From IMG/VR virus record IMGVR_UViG_3300037261_000025, positions 1 through 50,988 of that record: a DNA stretch of 50,988 nucleotides; one strand, written 5' to 3'. The notes under the pieces are model-generated. The model did not search any database. It was not told the DNA's origin and saw nothing but the letters and a program-made list of their open reading frames with translations. This document shows, in pieces, positions 5,589-47,007 of this stretch. A program made the translations under genes and the position numbers. The stretch's first letter is position 1; each line of letters begins with the position of its first letter. Origin of the DNA: a virus.

Positions 5589-5615
5589 GCCGACGAGCCA
5601 GTGTCGGTATTTTTT
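5589..5615 (+). terminator. Weak stem-loop with T run before the helicase gene
   Basis: CCGAC (5590-5594) pairs with GTCGG (5603-5607) around an 8-base loop and is followed by a run of six T (5610-5615). The stem is only 5-6 bp, so at most it is an attenuator. The ribosome site of the helicase gene (GGGGA, 5616-5620) follows directly. Confidence 0.3.
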
Positions 5616-5624
5616 GGGGATTTT

Positions 5625-8600
5625 ATGAGTGAAGTTGTCCTATTTGAAGATCAAAAAGAGGTGCTAGATAAAGTGCGTTCCGCGTTTATTGAGGGCCATA
5701 GGTCTGTGATGTTGTACGCGCCAACTGGCGCCGGAAAGTGCTTAGGACGCGATACACCTGTGATGATGGCAGACGGAACCATCAAGCCGGTGCAGGACAT
5801 CATAGCTGGTGAGTTTTTGATGGGCGACGATGGCGATCCGCGCTGTGTTATGAGCACAGCAACGGGAAGAGAAATGCTCTACCGCGTGACGCCACGAAAG
5901 GGTGATTCCTATGTGGTGAATGCGAGCCATCTTCTAAGTCTGCGTGTGACTCCAGGTAGCAACGGGATCCTTCTTGCTGATGGTATGCACATTAAGCGTG
6001 GTGAAGATGTTGTCTCTGTTCGTGCAGACGTATTCGCAAGAAGCAATAGAACCGCGAAGCATTGCCTAAAGGGCTGGAGATCGGATGCTATCCAAGCGTT
6101 CATGCGCGAGGATGATGGCGAGGACCGATTGATGCCGTCATATATTCTTGGTGCATGGCTTGGAGACGGAACCTTGGGCCACGCATCGATTACGAAGCCG
6201 CGCAGCAGGATGGTTGATGAGTGGGTTGCCTATGGTAGATCGATTGGTTACGGCGTCAGTATTGACGAGTGCGATGGTCGATGCCCCACATGGTTGTTGA
6301 CGAATGGATCTGACGGGTACGCATTCAACATCGCTCAATCGTCTCTTGGCGTCATCGGGGTCTTGCAGCGCAAGCACATACCTGACGCCTATAAGTATGG
6401 CCCGCTCTCTGATCGTCTGCAACTGCTGGCAGGTCTGATTGACAGCGATGGATCAGAATCGAATGGCGGATGCGACTGGATCAGTAAGAGCGAGGAGCTT
6501 GCCCGCGACTTCGCATTCGTCTGCCGTTCAGTGGGGCTGGCGTGCTACTTGACCTATGAGAAGAAGGGAATAAAGAGTACCGGATTTGTAGGTTGGTACT
6601 GGCGGGCGAGCGTGAGCGGAGACCTATCGATCATCCCGACGCGCGACAAGATATTCCCCGAACGTCGACAGATCAAGCGGCATCTTGTCCACGGGATCAC
6701 CGTCGAGCCAATGGGAGAGGGTGACTACTTCGGTTTCGAGATCGATGGTAATCGGCTGTTCTTGCTGGGTGACTTCACGGTAACGCACAACACCGAGATG
6801 GCAATTTCCATGCTCAAAGCAACGTCGGACAAGTACAAGCGCGGGGCAATGATGCTTGACCGCATTGTTCTTTGCAATCAGACAAGCGCGCGCCTGCAGA
6901 AGTACAACATCGATCACGGCGTCATGCAGTCAGGCCATTGGCGAAATCGACCCTATGAGCGCATCCAAGTGTGTAGTGCGCAGACTCTCGAAAAGCGCGG
7001 ATCGTTCCCAGGGCTTGACCTTTTGATTGTTGATGAGTGTTTTCCTGGTGAAACGTTAATTGACACAATTGACGGCGCGCGTCGAATAGACACACTAAAC
7101 GATGGCGGTCTCATATACAATGCAATAGGTACTGGAACAGTTCGTTCAATTTTCTCGAAAACGGTGTTTCAGACATTGCTTGTAAGGATGTCAAATGGCG
7201 ACTCATTTGAATGCACAGAGGATCATCCCGTGTTCACTGACTTGGGATGGCAACCCGCTGGCGCCATGGCGCGGGGTACGAAGCTATTTCGCGGTGAAAA
7301 CTTGCGAAGTCTGTGGAGAGGAGATTCGACCGCTTGTCATAAACTCGAAAACGGAGGGAGTGATACCGGAAGCGGAAACATTATTCAATGCGCGGAAATG
7401 TTGCGGGAAATCTTGCGCCAAGAAATTGAGCAACCCGATGCACAAGCCGGAATTGCGTATGAAAATGAAGGATACGCTTCTCCGAATTGGGCACAAGCCA
7501 TTGGTGCGCGGAGGCAATGGGAAGGGCATGACGGAGACCGAGACGCTTATGTTGAGCAAGTTGCCGGTGGGGTGGGGTCCAGGCCACATTTTCAAGACGT
7601 TGAGAAGTGCGGCTCAGGGGTATCCGCATCACTACAAATTGGATCTTGCGTTTCCTATCCAAAGGCTTTGTCTGGAGTTGGATGGCGGGAGTCATCGCTC
7701 GATTGCTCGGCAAGCGCAGGACGCGAAGAAGGATGCGCTGCTAAGAGAGTTTGGGTGGAAAGTGTGCAGACTCAAGAACACCCAAGCGGTAGAACTGTTT
7801 TCAACTTGCGAGTCAGTGGACACCCTTCGTATTTTGCAAATGGCTACCTAGTCCATAACTGCCACACCCAGCGACAGCAGACAACGGAGTTCATTCGGTC
7901 GAACGAAAGCATCAAAGTCATCGGCCTATCGGCTTCACCATTCGCCGACGGACTTGGAAAGACCTATACCAAGGTCGTATCGGCAACAACCACTGCAAAG
8001 TTGGTAGACCAAAAGCGACTCGTTCCTCTGCGCGTGTTTATCGCCAAGGAAATCGACATGGCTGGAGCGAAGAAAGTCGCTGGAGAATGGTCACAGGGCG
8101 AAGCGGCAGAGCGGGGCATGAAAATAACCGGCGATGTGGTGGCTGAGTGGGTGAAGAAAACGACCGAGATTTTCGGTGGACCTCGAAAGACGATTGTGTT
8201 TTGCTCGAATGTCGCCCACGGCGCTGATCTGGCGAATAAGTTCTCGGATGCCGGGTACAACTTCGTCGCGATCAGCTACAAGGATTCTGACGAGTTCAAG
8301 GTTGATGCCGTCGCTGATTTCTCAAAGCCTGATACGGCCATTCATGGTCTGATTGCATGCGACATCTTGACCAAGGGATTTGATGTGCCTGATGTCATGA
8401 TCGGAGTCAGCGCGCGTCCGTTCACCAAGTCATTCATGAGCCACGTCCAGCAAATGGGCCGGGTGATGCGCAGCTACCCAGAAAAGGAGTTCGCAATATG
8501 GCTTGACCACTCGGGGAACTATCTCCGGTTTCAAGAGGACTGGGACGAGCTATACCACGAAGGAGTCCATGAACTTTCTGACGGAAAAGAAAAGGCAAAG

Positions 8601-8975
8601 AAAGAAAAATCCGACAAAGAAAAGGAAGCGGCAAAGTGCCCTCGATGTCATGCGCTATGGGTCGGAAAGTCCGACAACTGCGTTGCATGCGGGTATGCCA
8701 GGCCGTTCACCAGCTTGATCGAAGCCGTACCGGGTGAGATGGAAGAACTCAAGGGTGCTCCGACGAAGGATGTGAAGCAGTCATGGTATTCGCAGCTTCG
8801 CACGCTTGCGGAGAACAGAGGATATTCGAATGGCTGGGTCGCGCACAAGTACCGTACCCGTTTTGGGGTGTGGCCCAAGGGCTTGCAGGAGGTTGCGCTG
8901 CCAGTTAGCATCGAGGTCGCACGATGGGAAACAAGCCAAAGAATTGCATGGGCTAAAGGTAAGAAATCAGTATGA
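5625..8975 (+). CDS. DEAD/DECH-box DNA helicase precursor interrupted by two inteins
   Basis: 1116 residues as translated. Removing two inteins (351 and 274 residues) leaves a helicase of about 491 residues. Mature motifs: Walker A PTGAGKT, formed only after intein 1 is removed; DECH box VDECH, formed only after intein 2 is removed; LSASPFADG (motif III region); QQMGRVMRS (motif VI); and a C-terminal zinc ribbon CPRC...CVAC. Start: ATG 5625 has GGGGA 4 bases upstream and is preferred over the in-frame GTG at 5601. Both inteins sit in catalytic motifs, so the protein should be inactive until spliced. A GIY-YIG nuclease and primase follow with overlapping starts, so it is a replication helicase by context. 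Confidence 0.93.
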   Translation: MSEVVLFEDQKEVLDKVRSAFIEGHRSVMLYAPTGAGKCLGRDTPVMMADGTIKPVQDIIAGEFLMGDDGDPRCVMSTATGREMLYRVTPRKGDSYVVNASHLLSLRVTPGSNGILLADGMHIKRGEDVVSVRADVFARSNRTAKHCLKGWRSDAIQAFMREDDGEDRLMPSYILGAWLGDGTLGHASITKPRSRMVDEWVAYGRSIGYGVSIDECDGRCPTWLLTNGSDGYAFNIAQSSLGVIGVLQRKHIPDAYKYGPLSDRLQLLAGLIDSDGSESNGGCDWISKSEELARDFAFVCRSVGLACYLTYEKKGIKSTGFVGWYWRASVSGDLSIIPTRDKIFPERRQIKRHLVHGITVEPMGEGDYFGFEIDGNRLFLLGDFTVTHNTEMAISMLKATSDKYKRGAMMLDRIVLCNQTSARLQKYNIDHGVMQSGHWRNRPYERIQVCSAQTLEKRGSFPGLDLLIVDECFPGETLIDTIDGARRIDTLNDGGLIYNAIGTGTVRSIFSKTVFQTLLVRMSNGDSFECTEDHPVFTDLGWQPAGAMARGTKLFRGENLRSLWRGDSTACHKLENGGSDTGSGNIIQCAEMLREILRQEIEQPDAQAGIAYENEGYASPNWAQAIGARRQWEGHDGDRDAYVEQVAGGVGSRPHFQDVEKCGSGVSASLQIGSCVSYPKALSGVGWRESSLDCSASAGREEGCAAKRVWVESVQTQEHPSGRTVFNLRVSGHPSYFANGYLVHNCHTQRQQTTEFIRSNESIKVIGLSASPFADGLGKTYTKVVSATTTAKLVDQKRLVPLRVFIAKEIDMAGAKKVAGEWSQGEAAERGMKITGDVVAEWVKKTTEIFGGPRKTIVFCSNVAHGADLANKFSDAGYNFVAISYKDSDEFKVDAVADFSKPDTAIHGLIACDILTKGFDVPDVMIGVSARPFTKSFMSHVQQMGRVMRSYPEKEFAIWLDHSGNYLRFQEDWDELYHEGVHELSDGKEKAKKEKSDKEKEAAKCPRCHALWVGKSDNCVACGYARPFTSLIEAVPGEMEELKGAPTKDVKQSWYSQLRTLAENRGYSNGWVAHKYRTRFGVWPKGLQEVALPVSIEVARWETSQRIAWAKGKKSV
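5739..6791 (+). mobile_element. Intein 1 with LAGLIDADG homing endonuclease (in Walker A)
   Basis: 351 codons in frame. It starts at Cys (TGC 5739) after APTGAGK and ends VTHN (AAC 6789-6791), followed by Thr as the +1 residue. Block A: CLGRDTPVMMADGTIKPV. Block B-like: VNASHLLSL. The endonuclease core has two dodecapeptides, YILGAWLGDGTLG and LLAGLIDSDGSES. The C-terminal splicing blocks are YFGFEIDGNRLFLLGDFTVTHN. All residues for canonical splicing are present: Cys1, terminal Asn preceded by His, and Thr+1. Insertion in the P-loop of an ATPase is a typical intein site. Confidence 0.95.
7038..7859 (+). mobile_element. Intein 2 (in the DECH box), with an out-of-frame nuclease gene inside
   Basis: 274 codons in the helicase frame. 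It starts at Cys (TGT 7038) after LLIVDE and ends GYLVHN (AAC 7857-7859); the next residue is Cys, the start of CHTQ. N-terminal splicing blocks: CFPGETLIDTIDGARRI and FECTEDHPVF. C-terminal block: TVFNLRVSGHPSYFANGYLVHN split over 7797-7859. In its own frame the ~160 residues between the blocks have no endonuclease motif and read like a by-product frame. The other plus frame (7195-7851) encodes a nuclease. So the middle of this intein is a linker whose sequence is set by another gene. Confidence 0.93.
7195..7851 (+). CDS. Vsr/DUF559-like homing endonuclease nested out of frame inside intein 2
   Basis: 218 residues, frame +1 relative to the helicase, wholly inside the intein. Start ATG 7195 has its own ribosome site AAGGA with a 6-base spacer, supporting independent translation. 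Residues ~36-82 carry paired Cys (KTCEVCGEEI and KCCGKSC), a likely zinc-binding DNA-recognition element. Residues ~150-205 hold a PD-(D/E)XK core: YKLDLAFP, then CLELDGGSHRS, then DALLREFGWKVCRLKN. This pattern matches Vsr-like/DUF559 nucleases found as free-standing homing enzymes. Its stop (TAG 7849-7851) lies 8 bases before the end of the intein. The first ~30 residues overlap the N-terminal splicing block and may be less constrained. Confidence 0.85.
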   Translation: MATHLNAQRIIPCSLTWDGNPLAPWRGVRSYFAVKTCEVCGEEIRPLVINSKTEGVIPEAETLFNARKCCGKSCAKKLSNPMHKPELRMKMKDTLLRIGHKPLVRGGNGKGMTETETLMLSKLPVGWGPGHIFKTLRSAAQGYPHHYKLDLAFPIQRLCLELDGGSHRSIARQAQDAKKDALLREFGWKVCRLKNTQAVELFSTCESVDTLRILQMAT

Positions 8976-9685
8976 GTAACACCAATTGTCGATGCGGTAT
9001 TTATTCAATTGCTACGCCGAATGGCAGTACGTACATTGGCAGCAGCAACAAAATCGAGCGCCGATGGCACGAGCACCGGAGCCTGTTGCGCCACGGCAAG
9101 CACCATTCCACGAGGTTGCAGGCAGCTTGGGATAAGCATGGTGCGGCGCTTGTGTTTTCTGTATTGATGGAATGCCCGCTGGCTGAATTGAACGAGCGGG
9201 AGCATGAGTTTATTGATCGGCTTGGCGCTAAATTGAATACGTCCACATTCGTAGAAAACGTTTGGCTTAACGAAAGTACACGGGCGAAGTTCTCGGCTAT
9301 CCACCAATCCCCCGAATGGAAGGAATCCCGTAGACGCATTGCGACCGAATCTTCAACGCGCTGGGTAGCAGTCGAGTGCAGCAATGGGACTCAGTACAAG
9401 AACATGACGGATGCGGCACGCGCTTTTGGGGTTCGCGCTGCTGGCATCGCTCATCTTGTCAGGTCGCAGCGAGTTGGAAGGCTTGGCGTCCGCTTCAAAC
9501 TACAAACAGAGTGTTGGCGCGATGTGCCGACATGGCAGGATCAGCGCGTCATTACTATGCGCCAAAACGGCAACGACAAACGCACCGATCAATCTCGCGC
9601 GCGCATGAGCGCAGCGAAGAAGGGGCGCGCCGTCAGCCCCCAATGCCTTGCGGCCGCGACTGCTGCGAATCGGAAGACTGCATGA
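8972..9685 (+). CDS. GIY-YIG homing endonuclease
   Basis: 237 residues. N-terminal GIY-YIG domain (~1-90): GIYSI (9-13), TYIGSS (20-25), RRWHEHRSLL with the catalytic Arg, and EFIDRLGAKLN with the metal-binding Glu. The C-terminal region (~120-190) has a NUMOD-type DNA-binding stretch (SNGTQYKNMTDAARAFGV). The extreme C-terminus (DKRTDQSRARMSAAKKGR) resembles the basic repeat of segE-type mobile nucleases. ATG overlaps the helicase stop, and its stop overlaps the primase start, so it is coupled into the operon rather than sitting in an intron. Likely target: a gene next door in related phages (inference). Confidence 0.88.
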   Translation: MSNTNCRCGIYSIATPNGSTYIGSSNKIERRWHEHRSLLRHGKHHSTRLQAAWDKHGAALVFSVLMECPLAELNEREHEFIDRLGAKLNTSTFVENVWLNESTRAKFSAIHQSPEWKESRRRIATESSTRWVAVECSNGTQYKNMTDAARAFGVRAAGIAHLVRSQRVGRLGVRFKLQTECWRDVPTWQDQRVITMRQNGNDKRTDQSRARMSAAKKGRAVSPQCLAAATAANRKTA

Positions 9686-10551: not shown

Positions 10552-10786
10552 ATTACCACTTTTATTGCACTTGAGTGGTGGGACATAGTTTAACCGCAGC
10601 ACTCAAGGAAGATCCCCTACTGTGAGGACAGACAAGGAAGAAGGGGTAAGGGTGGCGAAGGCAGCGCCCGATTGTCGAACGGCTACCGGGTCATGTAACG
10701 GCGAGAGGCATACATGTGAAGGACTTGGACCCAAGGATGGGCTAGGTCCGTCCAGCTCAAGGCATTTAGAAGTTAAGGGGAAGTTA
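10552..10786 (+). other. 235-base noncoding stretch with several inverted repeats
   Basis: Downstream of the primase the plus strand has no supported gene until 10787. CTTGAGTG (10570-10577) and CACTCAAG (10600-10607) form a perfect 8-bp dyad with a 22-base loop. Further on, GGACC-type and GGTCC-type segments around 10727-10752 could pair. An open frame from GTG 10622 covers part of it, but it lacks a ribosome site and codon character. A structured RNA or a remnant is possible; I cannot assign a class. Confidence 0.35.
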
Positions 10787-11068: not shown

Positions 11069-11227
11069 ATGGAATCAGTGAAAAAAGCGCACATCGCGCA
11101 CCTGATCCGGCTGCGTCAGGCGGACCCGGAATATGCCCGATACGCGCTCGCACAGACGCTGGCGATGGACATATGGCCGGACCTGGAAGAGTGCGTGCTG
11201 AGGGCTTGGAATGATCGAGAGAAGTAA
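11069..11227 (+). CDS. Small hypothetical protein (52 aa)
   Basis: 52 residues: MESVKKAHIAHLIRLRQADP at the start, ending WNDREK. Amphipathic, helical, normal codon use; a slightly longer ORF in another frame from ATG 11062 reads as Gly/Ala/Pro-rich junk and is rejected. The ribosome site is weak. The stop TAA lies in TAACGC, the left box of the structured element that follows. Confidence 0.55.
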   Translation: MESVKKAHIAHLIRLRQADPEYARYALAQTLAMDIWPDLEECVLRAWNDREK

Positions 11228-11293
11228 CGCCAAAAATCAGGGGGACTCCGGCGGCTTTATCGCCGGAGGCTCCCCTGGATTGCCGGGTTAGCC
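11225..11293 (+). repeat. attC-like structured element C
   Basis: TAAC (11225-11228, containing the upstream stop codon), a 7-base spacer, a left arm 11236-11253, the loop GCTTTAT, a right arm 11261-11280, a 6-base spacer and GTTAGCC (11287-11293). The inner stem CTCCGGCG/CGCCGGAG is perfect and is extended by GGGGA/TCCCC. The right arm is two bases longer than the left, so extra bases are unpaired. Box-spacer-stem-spacer-box order is that of integron attC sites. The right box is close to GTTRRRY; the left box is degenerate. Confidence 0.45.
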
Positions 11294-11316
11294 CCGGCGC
11301 AACTACGGAGACGAAC

Positions 11317-11787
11317 ATGGAGCGATTGAAATACCCAATGAGCCATGAATGGCACGTTGCGATCAACCGGCACCACGACGGAAAGATGGGAACGCCCGAT
11401 TGGAAGCGCTGGATGTACGAAGCGAAAGCGATGGCCGACGAAGTGCCGCGCATGGCACTGGTGCTCGGCAGGGAGCGGCGCGGAGAACTCGCCAAGACGC
11501 ATAAGCAATGCTCGATGAATCCGGCGGTGCCGGTGCCAAGCAACCACCTGACGTGCTGCCTCGGCGTGAAGTGCGCGGAGTGCCCGGAACTGCTGGCGAT
11601 CGACAAGATTGAGCGGGTAACGCCCGAAGACATTGACACGGCGAAGGCATGGACGTGCGCGGCGCACATTGTTTCCAAGGGCGGCGACACGATGAACGAA
11701 GGCTACCTGCTCGACGTGAGCGACCGGATGTACTGGGACAACGTGTGCGAGAGCCTGAGCCAAGGTGATGAAGGGGCTAACGCTTGA
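11317..11787 (+). CDS. Hypothetical protein (156 aa) with a Cys cluster
   Basis: 156 residues, ATG 11317 behind ACGGAGACGAAC. Residues ~1-50 are charged and helical (HEWHVAINRHHDGKMGTPDW). Residues ~79-90 carry CCLGVKCAEC, and another Cys follows in KAWTCAAHIV, suggesting metal binding. The C-terminus is acidic and aromatic (DVSDRMYWDNVCESL). It lies between two attC-like elements, in the position of a cassette gene. No recognised family. Confidence 0.7.
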   Translation: MERLKYPMSHEWHVAINRHHDGKMGTPDWKRWMYEAKAMADEVPRMALVLGRERRGELAKTHKQCSMNPAVPVPSNHLTCCLGVKCAECPELLAIDKIERVTPEDIDTAKAWTCAAHIVSKGGDTMNEGYLLDVSDRMYWDNVCESLSQGDEGANA

Positions 11788-11862
11788 ATTCAGCGACCGC
11801 GCTGAAAAATAAACTACAGCGTGCCACGCTTCGGCGCGGTTCGCTGGAATGACGGGTTAGCC
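11775..11862 (+). repeat. attC-like structured element D
   Basis: GGCTAAC (11775-11781), spacer GCTTGA, left arm 11788-11802, variable loop, right arm 11834-11850, spacer of 5, GTTAGCC (11856-11862). The outer boxes are exact complements. The arms pair throughout except for two extra bases (T and G) in the right arm, as expected for the extrahelical bases of an integron attC. It overlaps the last codons of the upstream gene, also typical of cassettes. Boxes match RYYYAAC and GTTRRRY at 6 of 7 positions each. Confidence 0.55.
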
Positions 11863-11902
11863 GCTGCCCGCGAAACAGCGCGCAACACTTGGAGAACGTG
11901 AA

Positions 11903-12091
11903 ATGAACTACTGTGAAGCCCTCGGCAAAATACGTGAAGCGCGAGCATTATTGCAAGACGAAGCTGCAACCCCGGCAAACACGCGGGAACTGGCTATGGC
12001 AATAACAAAGCTCGACGAAGCGATCCTCTGGCGGCAAAGCGACATGCAGAAAAAAGCGCCGGTCGTGGATGGCTGCTCCATAGGCGGCTAA
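11903..12091 (+). CDS. Acb2/Tad1-like helical-hairpin protein (candidate anti-CBASS)
   Basis: 62 residues, ATG 11903 after TTGGAGAACGTGAA. The core NTRELAMAITKLDEAILWRQ matches the pattern R-E-x-(S/A)-L-A-x-T-K-L-E-E-A-x-M-W common to DUF7681/Acb2-type phage hairpin proteins. Acb2 binds cyclic nucleotides and blocks CBASS/Thoeris-type defence. Here the N-terminal helix (CEALGKIREARALLQDEA) and the core would form the hairpin. Many such hairpins have no tested function, so anti-defence activity is inference. It lies between two structured elements. Confidence 0.5.
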   Translation: MNYCEALGKIREARALLQDEAATPANTRELAMAITKLDEAILWRQSDMQKKAPVVDGCSIGG

Positions 12092-12142
12092 CGCAATGTC
12101 TAGCGCAACTGCGACATAACGTCGCCACGGCCAAGTTATAGA
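12086..12142 (+). repeat. Structured intergenic element A (matches element B at 46501-46556)
   Basis: GGCTAACGCAAT (with the upstream stop TAA at 12089) runs through GCAAC and CATAAC to GTTATAGA (ending 12142). GCGAC/GTCGC (12111-12115/12121-12125) and ATAAC/GTTAT can pair. From TAA to the end of GTTATAGA is 54 bases, exactly as in element B after a different gene on the other strand. About two thirds of positions agree in a gap-free hand alignment. The ribosome site of the next gene follows at once. Confidence 0.45.
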
Positions 12143-46500: not shown

Positions 46501-46556
46501 GCTCTATAACGTCTCCACAGACAAGTTATAGAGCGGTTGCGGTTTATATTGCGTTA
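46501..46556 (-). repeat. Structured intergenic element B (matches element A)
   Basis: On the minus strand, TAACGCAAT (46556-46548, with the stop of the DUF3268-like gene), GCAAC, then GCTCTATAAC (46526 region), an inner GTCT-gtgg-AGAC hairpin and GTTATAGAGC (46510-46501). GCTCTATAAC and GTTATAGAGC are exact complements. Length and layout equal element A at 12086-12142. A partly matching GTTAGAT box lies at 46991-46997. It separates two genes of the recombination operon. Confidence 0.45.
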
Positions 46557-46976
46557 TGTGCGTTCCCACAGAATCGAGTTCCGTCCAAGCTGCACGGCCT
46601 TGGCGCATTGCACCTCGTCAAACTCGCCTATATGGGCTTCTCCCTTCCCGAGATTCATCAATACCGCGAGGTGTGAATACACCTCGTGTCTGCGTAGTCG
46701 GCCTTCGCGCCAGTAAGGGTCAATGGCCGCGTGTGCCGCTTGCTTCGCCGTTCTCAGTTGCGCGTTTGCCAGCCTACCGAGTGGTCTGGTGCCGTCGCCG
46801 TAGCCGTTGCCTGCTTTGTGGCATCCAACGTAAGCACCACATGGCACACAGCGCCAAAACCTCAAGGCTTCAAGGTCTGGGCGGTGCGGGTAAATGTCTG
46901 CGCCCGTTGCCAGTACCGCAGGCGTTCCGCAGTAGTGGCACATAACAGGTCGCTCAATCTGATTCACTTCGTTCAC
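46554..46976 (-). CDS. Zinc-finger protein (DUF3268-like)
   Basis: 140 residues, GTG start at 46976 supported by GGAG at a normal distance. CHYCGTPAVLATGADIYPHR and FWRCVPCGAYVGCHKAGN give two C-x2-C pairs plus a further Cys/His, the pattern of the zinc-finger domain of DUF3268. GKGEAHIGEFDEVQCAKAVQ ends the fold. These proteins occur widely in phage recombination clusters, function unknown. Confidence 0.8.
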   Translation of the reverse strand: MNEVNQIERPVMCHYCGTPAVLATGADIYPHRPDLEALRFWRCVPCGAYVGCHKAGNGYGDGTRPLGRLANAQLRTAKQAAHAAIDPYWREGRLRRHEVYSHLAVLMNLGKGEAHIGEFDEVQCAKAVQLGRNSILWERT

Positions 46977-47007
46977 AGCTTATCTCCAGCGTTAGATCGC
47001 ATAATCT

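Follow-up and report, generated by a model that had tools for sequence, protein, structure and literature searches.

What are the stem-forming elements that separate consecutive small genes in this stretch of phage DNA, and which way do they face relative to those genes? The stretch, referred to below as the window, is the whole of IMG/VR virus record IMGVR_UViG_3300037261_000025 (50,988 bp), and the elements, site C (11222-11293) and site D (11775-11862), are spaced approximately 480 bp apart. The original prediction described both as attC-like and the genes beside them as integron cassettes within a phage. We found that C and D are attC sites as judged from their sequence and predicted fold, with recombination by the integron integrase IntI a prediction, and that they face against the genes.

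We trained a covariance model, R2, exclusively on 20 attC sites of chromosomal origin, trimming long loops and imposing the known attC architecture as structure. In the window this model recognised site D with 56 bits (E = 7.9e-12) and site C with 31.3 bits (E = 1.4e-5); each hit fell on the minus strand (canonical top strand), while the genes there lie on the plus strand. The covariance-model search proposed along with the original prediction was thus significant, using a model made here. Read in gene sense, site D is bordered by GGCTAAC (11775-11781) and GTTAGCC (11856-11862), which are complementary at 7/7 positions and each deviate from the consensus (RYYYAAC and GTTRRRY) at one position. 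Site C has a degenerate left box, AAGTAAC (11222-11228), and GTTAGCC on the right (11287-11293), complementary at 4/7. Site D was also the top-scoring attC candidate of the window: with its 7/7 boxes it reached 15.9, and the highest score among ten local shuffles was 15.1. As single-stranded DNA, the plus strand (the attC bottom strand) of both sites folded more stably than shuffled sequence, at -26.5 kcal/mol for D (z = -5.2, 0/200 shuffles equally stable) and -19.2 kcal/mol for C (z = -3.3). No Rfam family matched the attC sites of the window. Because their sequence and structure fit a model made exclusively from chromosomal sites, C and D are attC sites, located where they had been predicted. 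Phages often have short G+C-rich hairpins downstream of stop codons, and ordinary intergenic terminators or repeats might resemble attC by chance; this is extremely improbable here, being contradicted by the R2 E-values, by the R boxes and by extrahelical bases that keep fixed positions in relatives.

In canonical attC sites, it is the left arm of the top strand that carries the extra bases, and the gene is on that same strand, a rule that our chromosomal loci bear out. In the window, reading in gene sense places an extra G and an extra T (G9 and T16 in site C) on the right arm only, and their positions coincide in C, D and relatives; read on the minus strand, they become the extrahelical C and A of the canonical left arm. 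The attC sites are therefore antisense to the genes, and the sense strand of the window is the recombinogenic attC 'bottom' strand. In a canonical cassette the gene reads along the attC top strand with its 5' end at TTRRRY; here the attC sites are on the minus strand and the genes on the plus strand. Similarly, in the cassette-gene relatives L017, L022 and L030-L033, all R2 sites fell on the minus strand, with the cassette genes on the other strand. The order R''-spacer-L''-loop-L'-spacer-R', which had been assigned in gene direction, is contradicted both by the extra bases and by the strand of the R2 hits.

Since the polarity is reversed, stem C pairs with the gene at 11317-11787 and stem D with the Acb2-like gene that follows. 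The two genes had been correctly proposed as consecutive cassettes, but each belongs with the stem upstream of it and not with the stem after it. By sequence and model, the window carries a two-cassette array without an integrase, that is, a cluster of attC sites lacking integrases (CALIN). The mobile unit of cassette 1, stem C plus gene, would span 11228-11780 on the minus strand, with cut points deduced from the G|TT of the R boxes, and its bordering boxes (GTTAGCCCC and GGGGCTAAC) are complementary over 9 nt. Its plus-strand gene (11317-11787) encodes 156 aa and has homologues in L003, L005, L006 and L030-L033, all of them viral contigs. The mobile unit of cassette 2, stem D plus the Acb2-like gene, would cover 11781-12091 (minus strand, cut points deduced likewise), and its boxes (GTTAGCCGC and GCGGCTAAC) are again complementary over 9 nt. 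The gene of cassette 2 (11903-12091, plus strand) encodes 62 aa resembling the Acb2/Tad1 hairpin, with a PF24729 match at E = 1.4e-4 and 22.4 bits, under the curated cut-off of 27, and weak matches to Tad1 chains; its TAA stop (TAA|C) falls exactly at the predicted cut. The suggestion that TAAC ends the upstream gene holds for a 52-aa gene (11069-11227, plus strand), which ends in the TAAC of site C; the gene at 11317-11787 runs past the box to a TGA at 11785-11787. No matching box was found upstream of the 52-aa gene, which borders the array and is not a proven cassette.

We then asked how cassettes are oriented in viral and chromosomal loci generally. Loci were picked by scanning both strands for attC core patterns, a choice that is blind to gene orientation, and orientation was called by codon-usage scoring. 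An orientation count based on the longest open reading frame (ORF) was noisy, giving 246:83 canonical to inverted on chromosomes, and was dropped in favor of this scoring. At R2 sites, IMG/VR contigs gave 125 inverted and 10 canonical gene calls (58:4 by contig, with 2 ties), and bacterial chromosomes gave 1 inverted and 139 canonical (1:21 by contig). The difference corresponds to a Fisher p of ~5e-65 on gene calls, which are not independent events, some viral contigs being near copies, and the ratio held at four score thresholds. A separate detector returned 277 canonical and 5 inverted calls on chromosomes, and inverted-to-canonical ratios of 5:0, 39:5 and 59:12 in three viral samples. Ten of the 12 canonical calls in the last sample came from L242, which lay outside the R2 run. 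This IMG/VR record stands out as the chief departure from the reversed pattern: its cassettes are canonical, with class-1-like boxes, and a full integron integrase is present. An additional pattern sample yielded 22:4 inverted to canonical, and among viral cassettes bounded by two sites, all 42 were inverted. The strand of one cassette was confirmed by a homologue in Pseudomonas phage RSP, annotated on the strand called here. Overall, reversed polarity predominates across the sampled phage contigs, whose cassette pool is a mirror image of the bacterial one.

Several observations argue that these units are exchanged. The DNA match between the window and L005 covers exactly 11287-11783, from box to box, while the adjoining genes and stems differ; cassettes as a route of gene exchange, part of the original prediction, are thereby supported. 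Homologues of the 156-aa gene sit between different attC stems in other phages, and record G003, to which L005 belongs, contains a run of about eight such cassette units. R boxes matched perfectly across the gene in 29 of 51 viral pairs and within the same site in 8 of 51, with chromosomal pairs at 280/361 and 148/361, respectively. A box before the gene that matches the box after it is a signature of units closing into circles. In 59 of the best 150 viral sites, the left box holds the stop of an open frame measuring 50 aa or more, in every case the TAA of TAAC. These findings bear on the idea that the hairpins are retained for mRNA processing, stability or attenuation, their attC-like sequence being inherited and no longer recombining. 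The sites do lie between a stop codon and a ribosome-binding site, and in site D folding is more stable for the sense strand (-26.5 kcal/mol) than for the antisense strand (-21.6 kcal/mol). However, cross-gene box complementarity, stem exchange and homology stopping at the boxes fit recombination and not an RNA function alone, and the sites match no Rfam family, making this explanation an improbable one.

Which enzyme might move the cassettes is a further question. Neither the window nor its four relatives yielded a PF00589 recombinase, although the record may be incomplete; with the attC sites close together, this agrees with the CALIN-like array that had been proposed. Lacking a recombinase, the window does not contain a complete integron (intI plus attI). 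Only 3 of 48 viral records encode a full integron integrase, and the integrase of most arrays therefore presumably comes from elsewhere. Phage contig L187 (814-3693) has an integron integrase beside a phage-type integrase, a phage tail protein and a reversed attC cassette. Chromosomal contig L152 (1470-7991) has a phage-type integrase and a second, IntI-like tyrosine recombinase with the domain make-up of the L187 IntI; its cassettes are reversed, and one encodes a Thg1-like tRNA-His guanylyltransferase. The cargo of viral cassettes is phage-like: DNA methyltransferases occur, as do a Phage_gp49_66 protein, a relative of crAss001_48, an RMF-like protein and, in a cassette outside the window, an Acb2/Tad1 hairpin protein that matches the profile at E = 9e-14. 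No attC was seen alongside cassette-gene homologues in the isolated phages RSP, TJ1, Yong-M4-211 and 0507-KN2-1, or in the Acb2 relatives L007-L016 (L009 left out).

Taken together, the window carries an integrase-less array of reversed cassettes, and we consider it probable that these are drawn from a phage pool moved by an outside integrase. Each cassette comprises a single phage gene together with its upstream attC stem, whose polarity opposes that of the gene. The integron integrase, supplied by the host or by a co-resident element, would bind the sense strand in its folded form (the attC bottom strand), cut at the R box and shift cassettes between phage arrays. We infer this action because of the attC homology, the box complementarity and the exchange of genes and stems.

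Why would the reversal persist? The single polarity of cassettes is thought to result from the integrase choosing the bottom strand and from Pc driving the genes. In phages, the reversal may persist since the genes would be expressed by phage transcription and not from an integron promoter. Moreover, where genes run with the replication fork, reversed polarity would put the recombinogenic strand on the lagging-strand template, easing folding and recombination, and transcription too would expose the sense strand. IntI recombines the folded bottom strand, and when an array of Vibrio cholerae is inverted so that the bottom strand is on the lagging template, excision rises (PMC11023631). GC skew in the window follows gene direction, which fits this reason without proving it. 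By analogy, exposure by replication and transcription is a conceivable reason for the reversal, though we lean against it.

The same pattern could arise without any benefit. An array, once reversed, can express only cassettes of like polarity, and since attC x attC exchange preserves polarity, the phage pool would stay reversed and apart from the bacterial pool. The uniform reversal within arrays, the phage-like cargo and the presence in several phages of a cassette gene that was not found in GTDB genomes are in line with such a founder effect, which would require one or a few founders, yet reversed arrays occur in diverse contigs with diverse stems. We regard it as possible but doubtful. Alternatively, reversed cassettes caught by a host integron would be antisense to Pc and silent, bringing the host neither harm nor profit. 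This follows from the observed polarity and the fixed insertion orientation at attI (PMC11023631), but offers no evident benefit to a lytic phage, and the one phage cassette gene looked for in bacterial genomes did not turn up there; we think it unlikely. That gene, the 156-aa gene of cassette 1, was absent from the GTDB search (one genome per species) and turned up only in viral contigs, which lends no support to the expectation of cassettes shared with chromosomal integrons; tblastn against phages and plasmids also returned none.

Some points weigh against our account of reversed cassettes moved by an outside integrase. The viral and chromosomal loci come mostly from different core patterns, the chromosomal sample is mainly Xanthomonadales, and a same-pattern chromosomal control was unusable, a single match having emerged from 398 genomes of the phylum. 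Near-duplicates occur among the viral contigs, and 14 of 33 checked viral records have a match to the PF03237 terminase or the PF05065 capsid family. The lytic Tetrasphaera phage TJE1 carries a published CALIN that is canonical, and reversal is not universal. Stems as well as genes differ among homologues, for which simple cassette transfer alone is insufficient. The replication argument leans on analogy and GC skew, and integrase action, with its excision, circles and recombination, is predicted from sequence.

Related elements mark the ends of the arrays. Element E (12086-12141, minus strand) lies at the end of the first array, in the position of attI in canonical orientation, and follows the pattern CTATAAC-N14-GTTAT...GTTGCG...TTGCG|TTAGCC. 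Element F (46504-46559, plus strand) has the same pattern and position, at the canonical 5' end of a second array. E and F are homologous (local score 70.5, where the null reached at most 54.5), and each terminates at G|TTRRRY. We also noted that they represent a duplicated palindromic CTATAAC-N14-GTTATAG and that their likeness extends as far as the start codons of the genes downstream, which are unrelated to each other. Similar instances are found in L260/L261 and L258, and the one in L260 adjoins an attC. No recognisable attI core was found in E or F, and an attI role for them is a suggestion from sequence and position. Tailed phages might, tentatively, keep a separate mirror-image pool with attI-like elements of their own, integrases from hosts or co-infecting elements, and a polarity that favors recombination of the fork-exposed sense strand in the brief lytic cycle.

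The second array contains a third attC site (46940-46997), which R2 placed on the plus strand (33.6 bits, E = 3.5e-6); the genes there are on the minus strand. Its sense-strand fold is not stable (z = -0.3), and the site has probably decayed. The putative cassette 3 gene (46554-46943, minus strand) encodes a phrog_1934 CxxC protein with homologues in 543 isolated-phage records; it is bordered by boxes GTTATGTGC and GCACATAAC, and its TAA stop falls exactly at the cut. As for the setting, the virus is a tailed phage, with a large terminase, major head protein, head-tail adaptor, RecE-like exonuclease, helicase and primase. The segment separating the primase gene from the cassette array holds an Rfam Betaproteobacteria-1 RNA (RF02932, 87 bits; 10568-10691, plus strand), which hints at a betaproteobacterial host. 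The DNA helicase (5601-8975, plus strand) is split by intein/Hint-like segments (PF05203, PF14623, PF14890) and is directly followed by an ORF (8972-9685) that, judged by eye, has the look of a GIY-YIG endonuclease. A string of near-identical repeats at the contig end (50790-50988) is probably a repeat-rich protein gene truncated by the end of the record. Named phages searched with DNA of the locus gave no match.

If true, this account describes a large phage reservoir of opposite polarity, and thus two cassette pools separated by expression. It would also give phages a modular route for swapping small genes, such as methyltransferases and Acb2/Tad1-type proteins, and would open a natural system in which to test the replication-strand hypothesis of attC recombination. 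Phage CALINs as such are known, and the systematic reversal would be the new part: our searches of open-access papers turned up no account of it. R2 gave no match on P12002L (first 48 kb) or PH101 (first 50 kb).

Among known systems, the closest are the published phage CALINs such as that of TJE1 (Qi et al. 2023, PMC9892861); IntI1 has been found to recombine published phage attC sites in vivo (PMC9892861). The window resembles the TJE1 type in its attC sites, its small cassettes and the lack of an integrase in the phage genome. In contrast to TJE1, where genes and attC sites are canonical, the window and most sampled IMG/VR arrays are reversed; both polarities therefore exist in phages. Phage records L187 and L202 share reversed cassettes beside attC sites with the window, but encode a full-length integron integrase where the window has none. 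Finally, sedentary chromosomal arrays of the Xanthomonadales type have the same R boxes, the same extrahelical C and A and the same GC before GTTR, and a model built from chromosomal sites finds the phage sites. Genes in those arrays run with the attC top strand (139:1), whereas in the window they run against it, and without intI.
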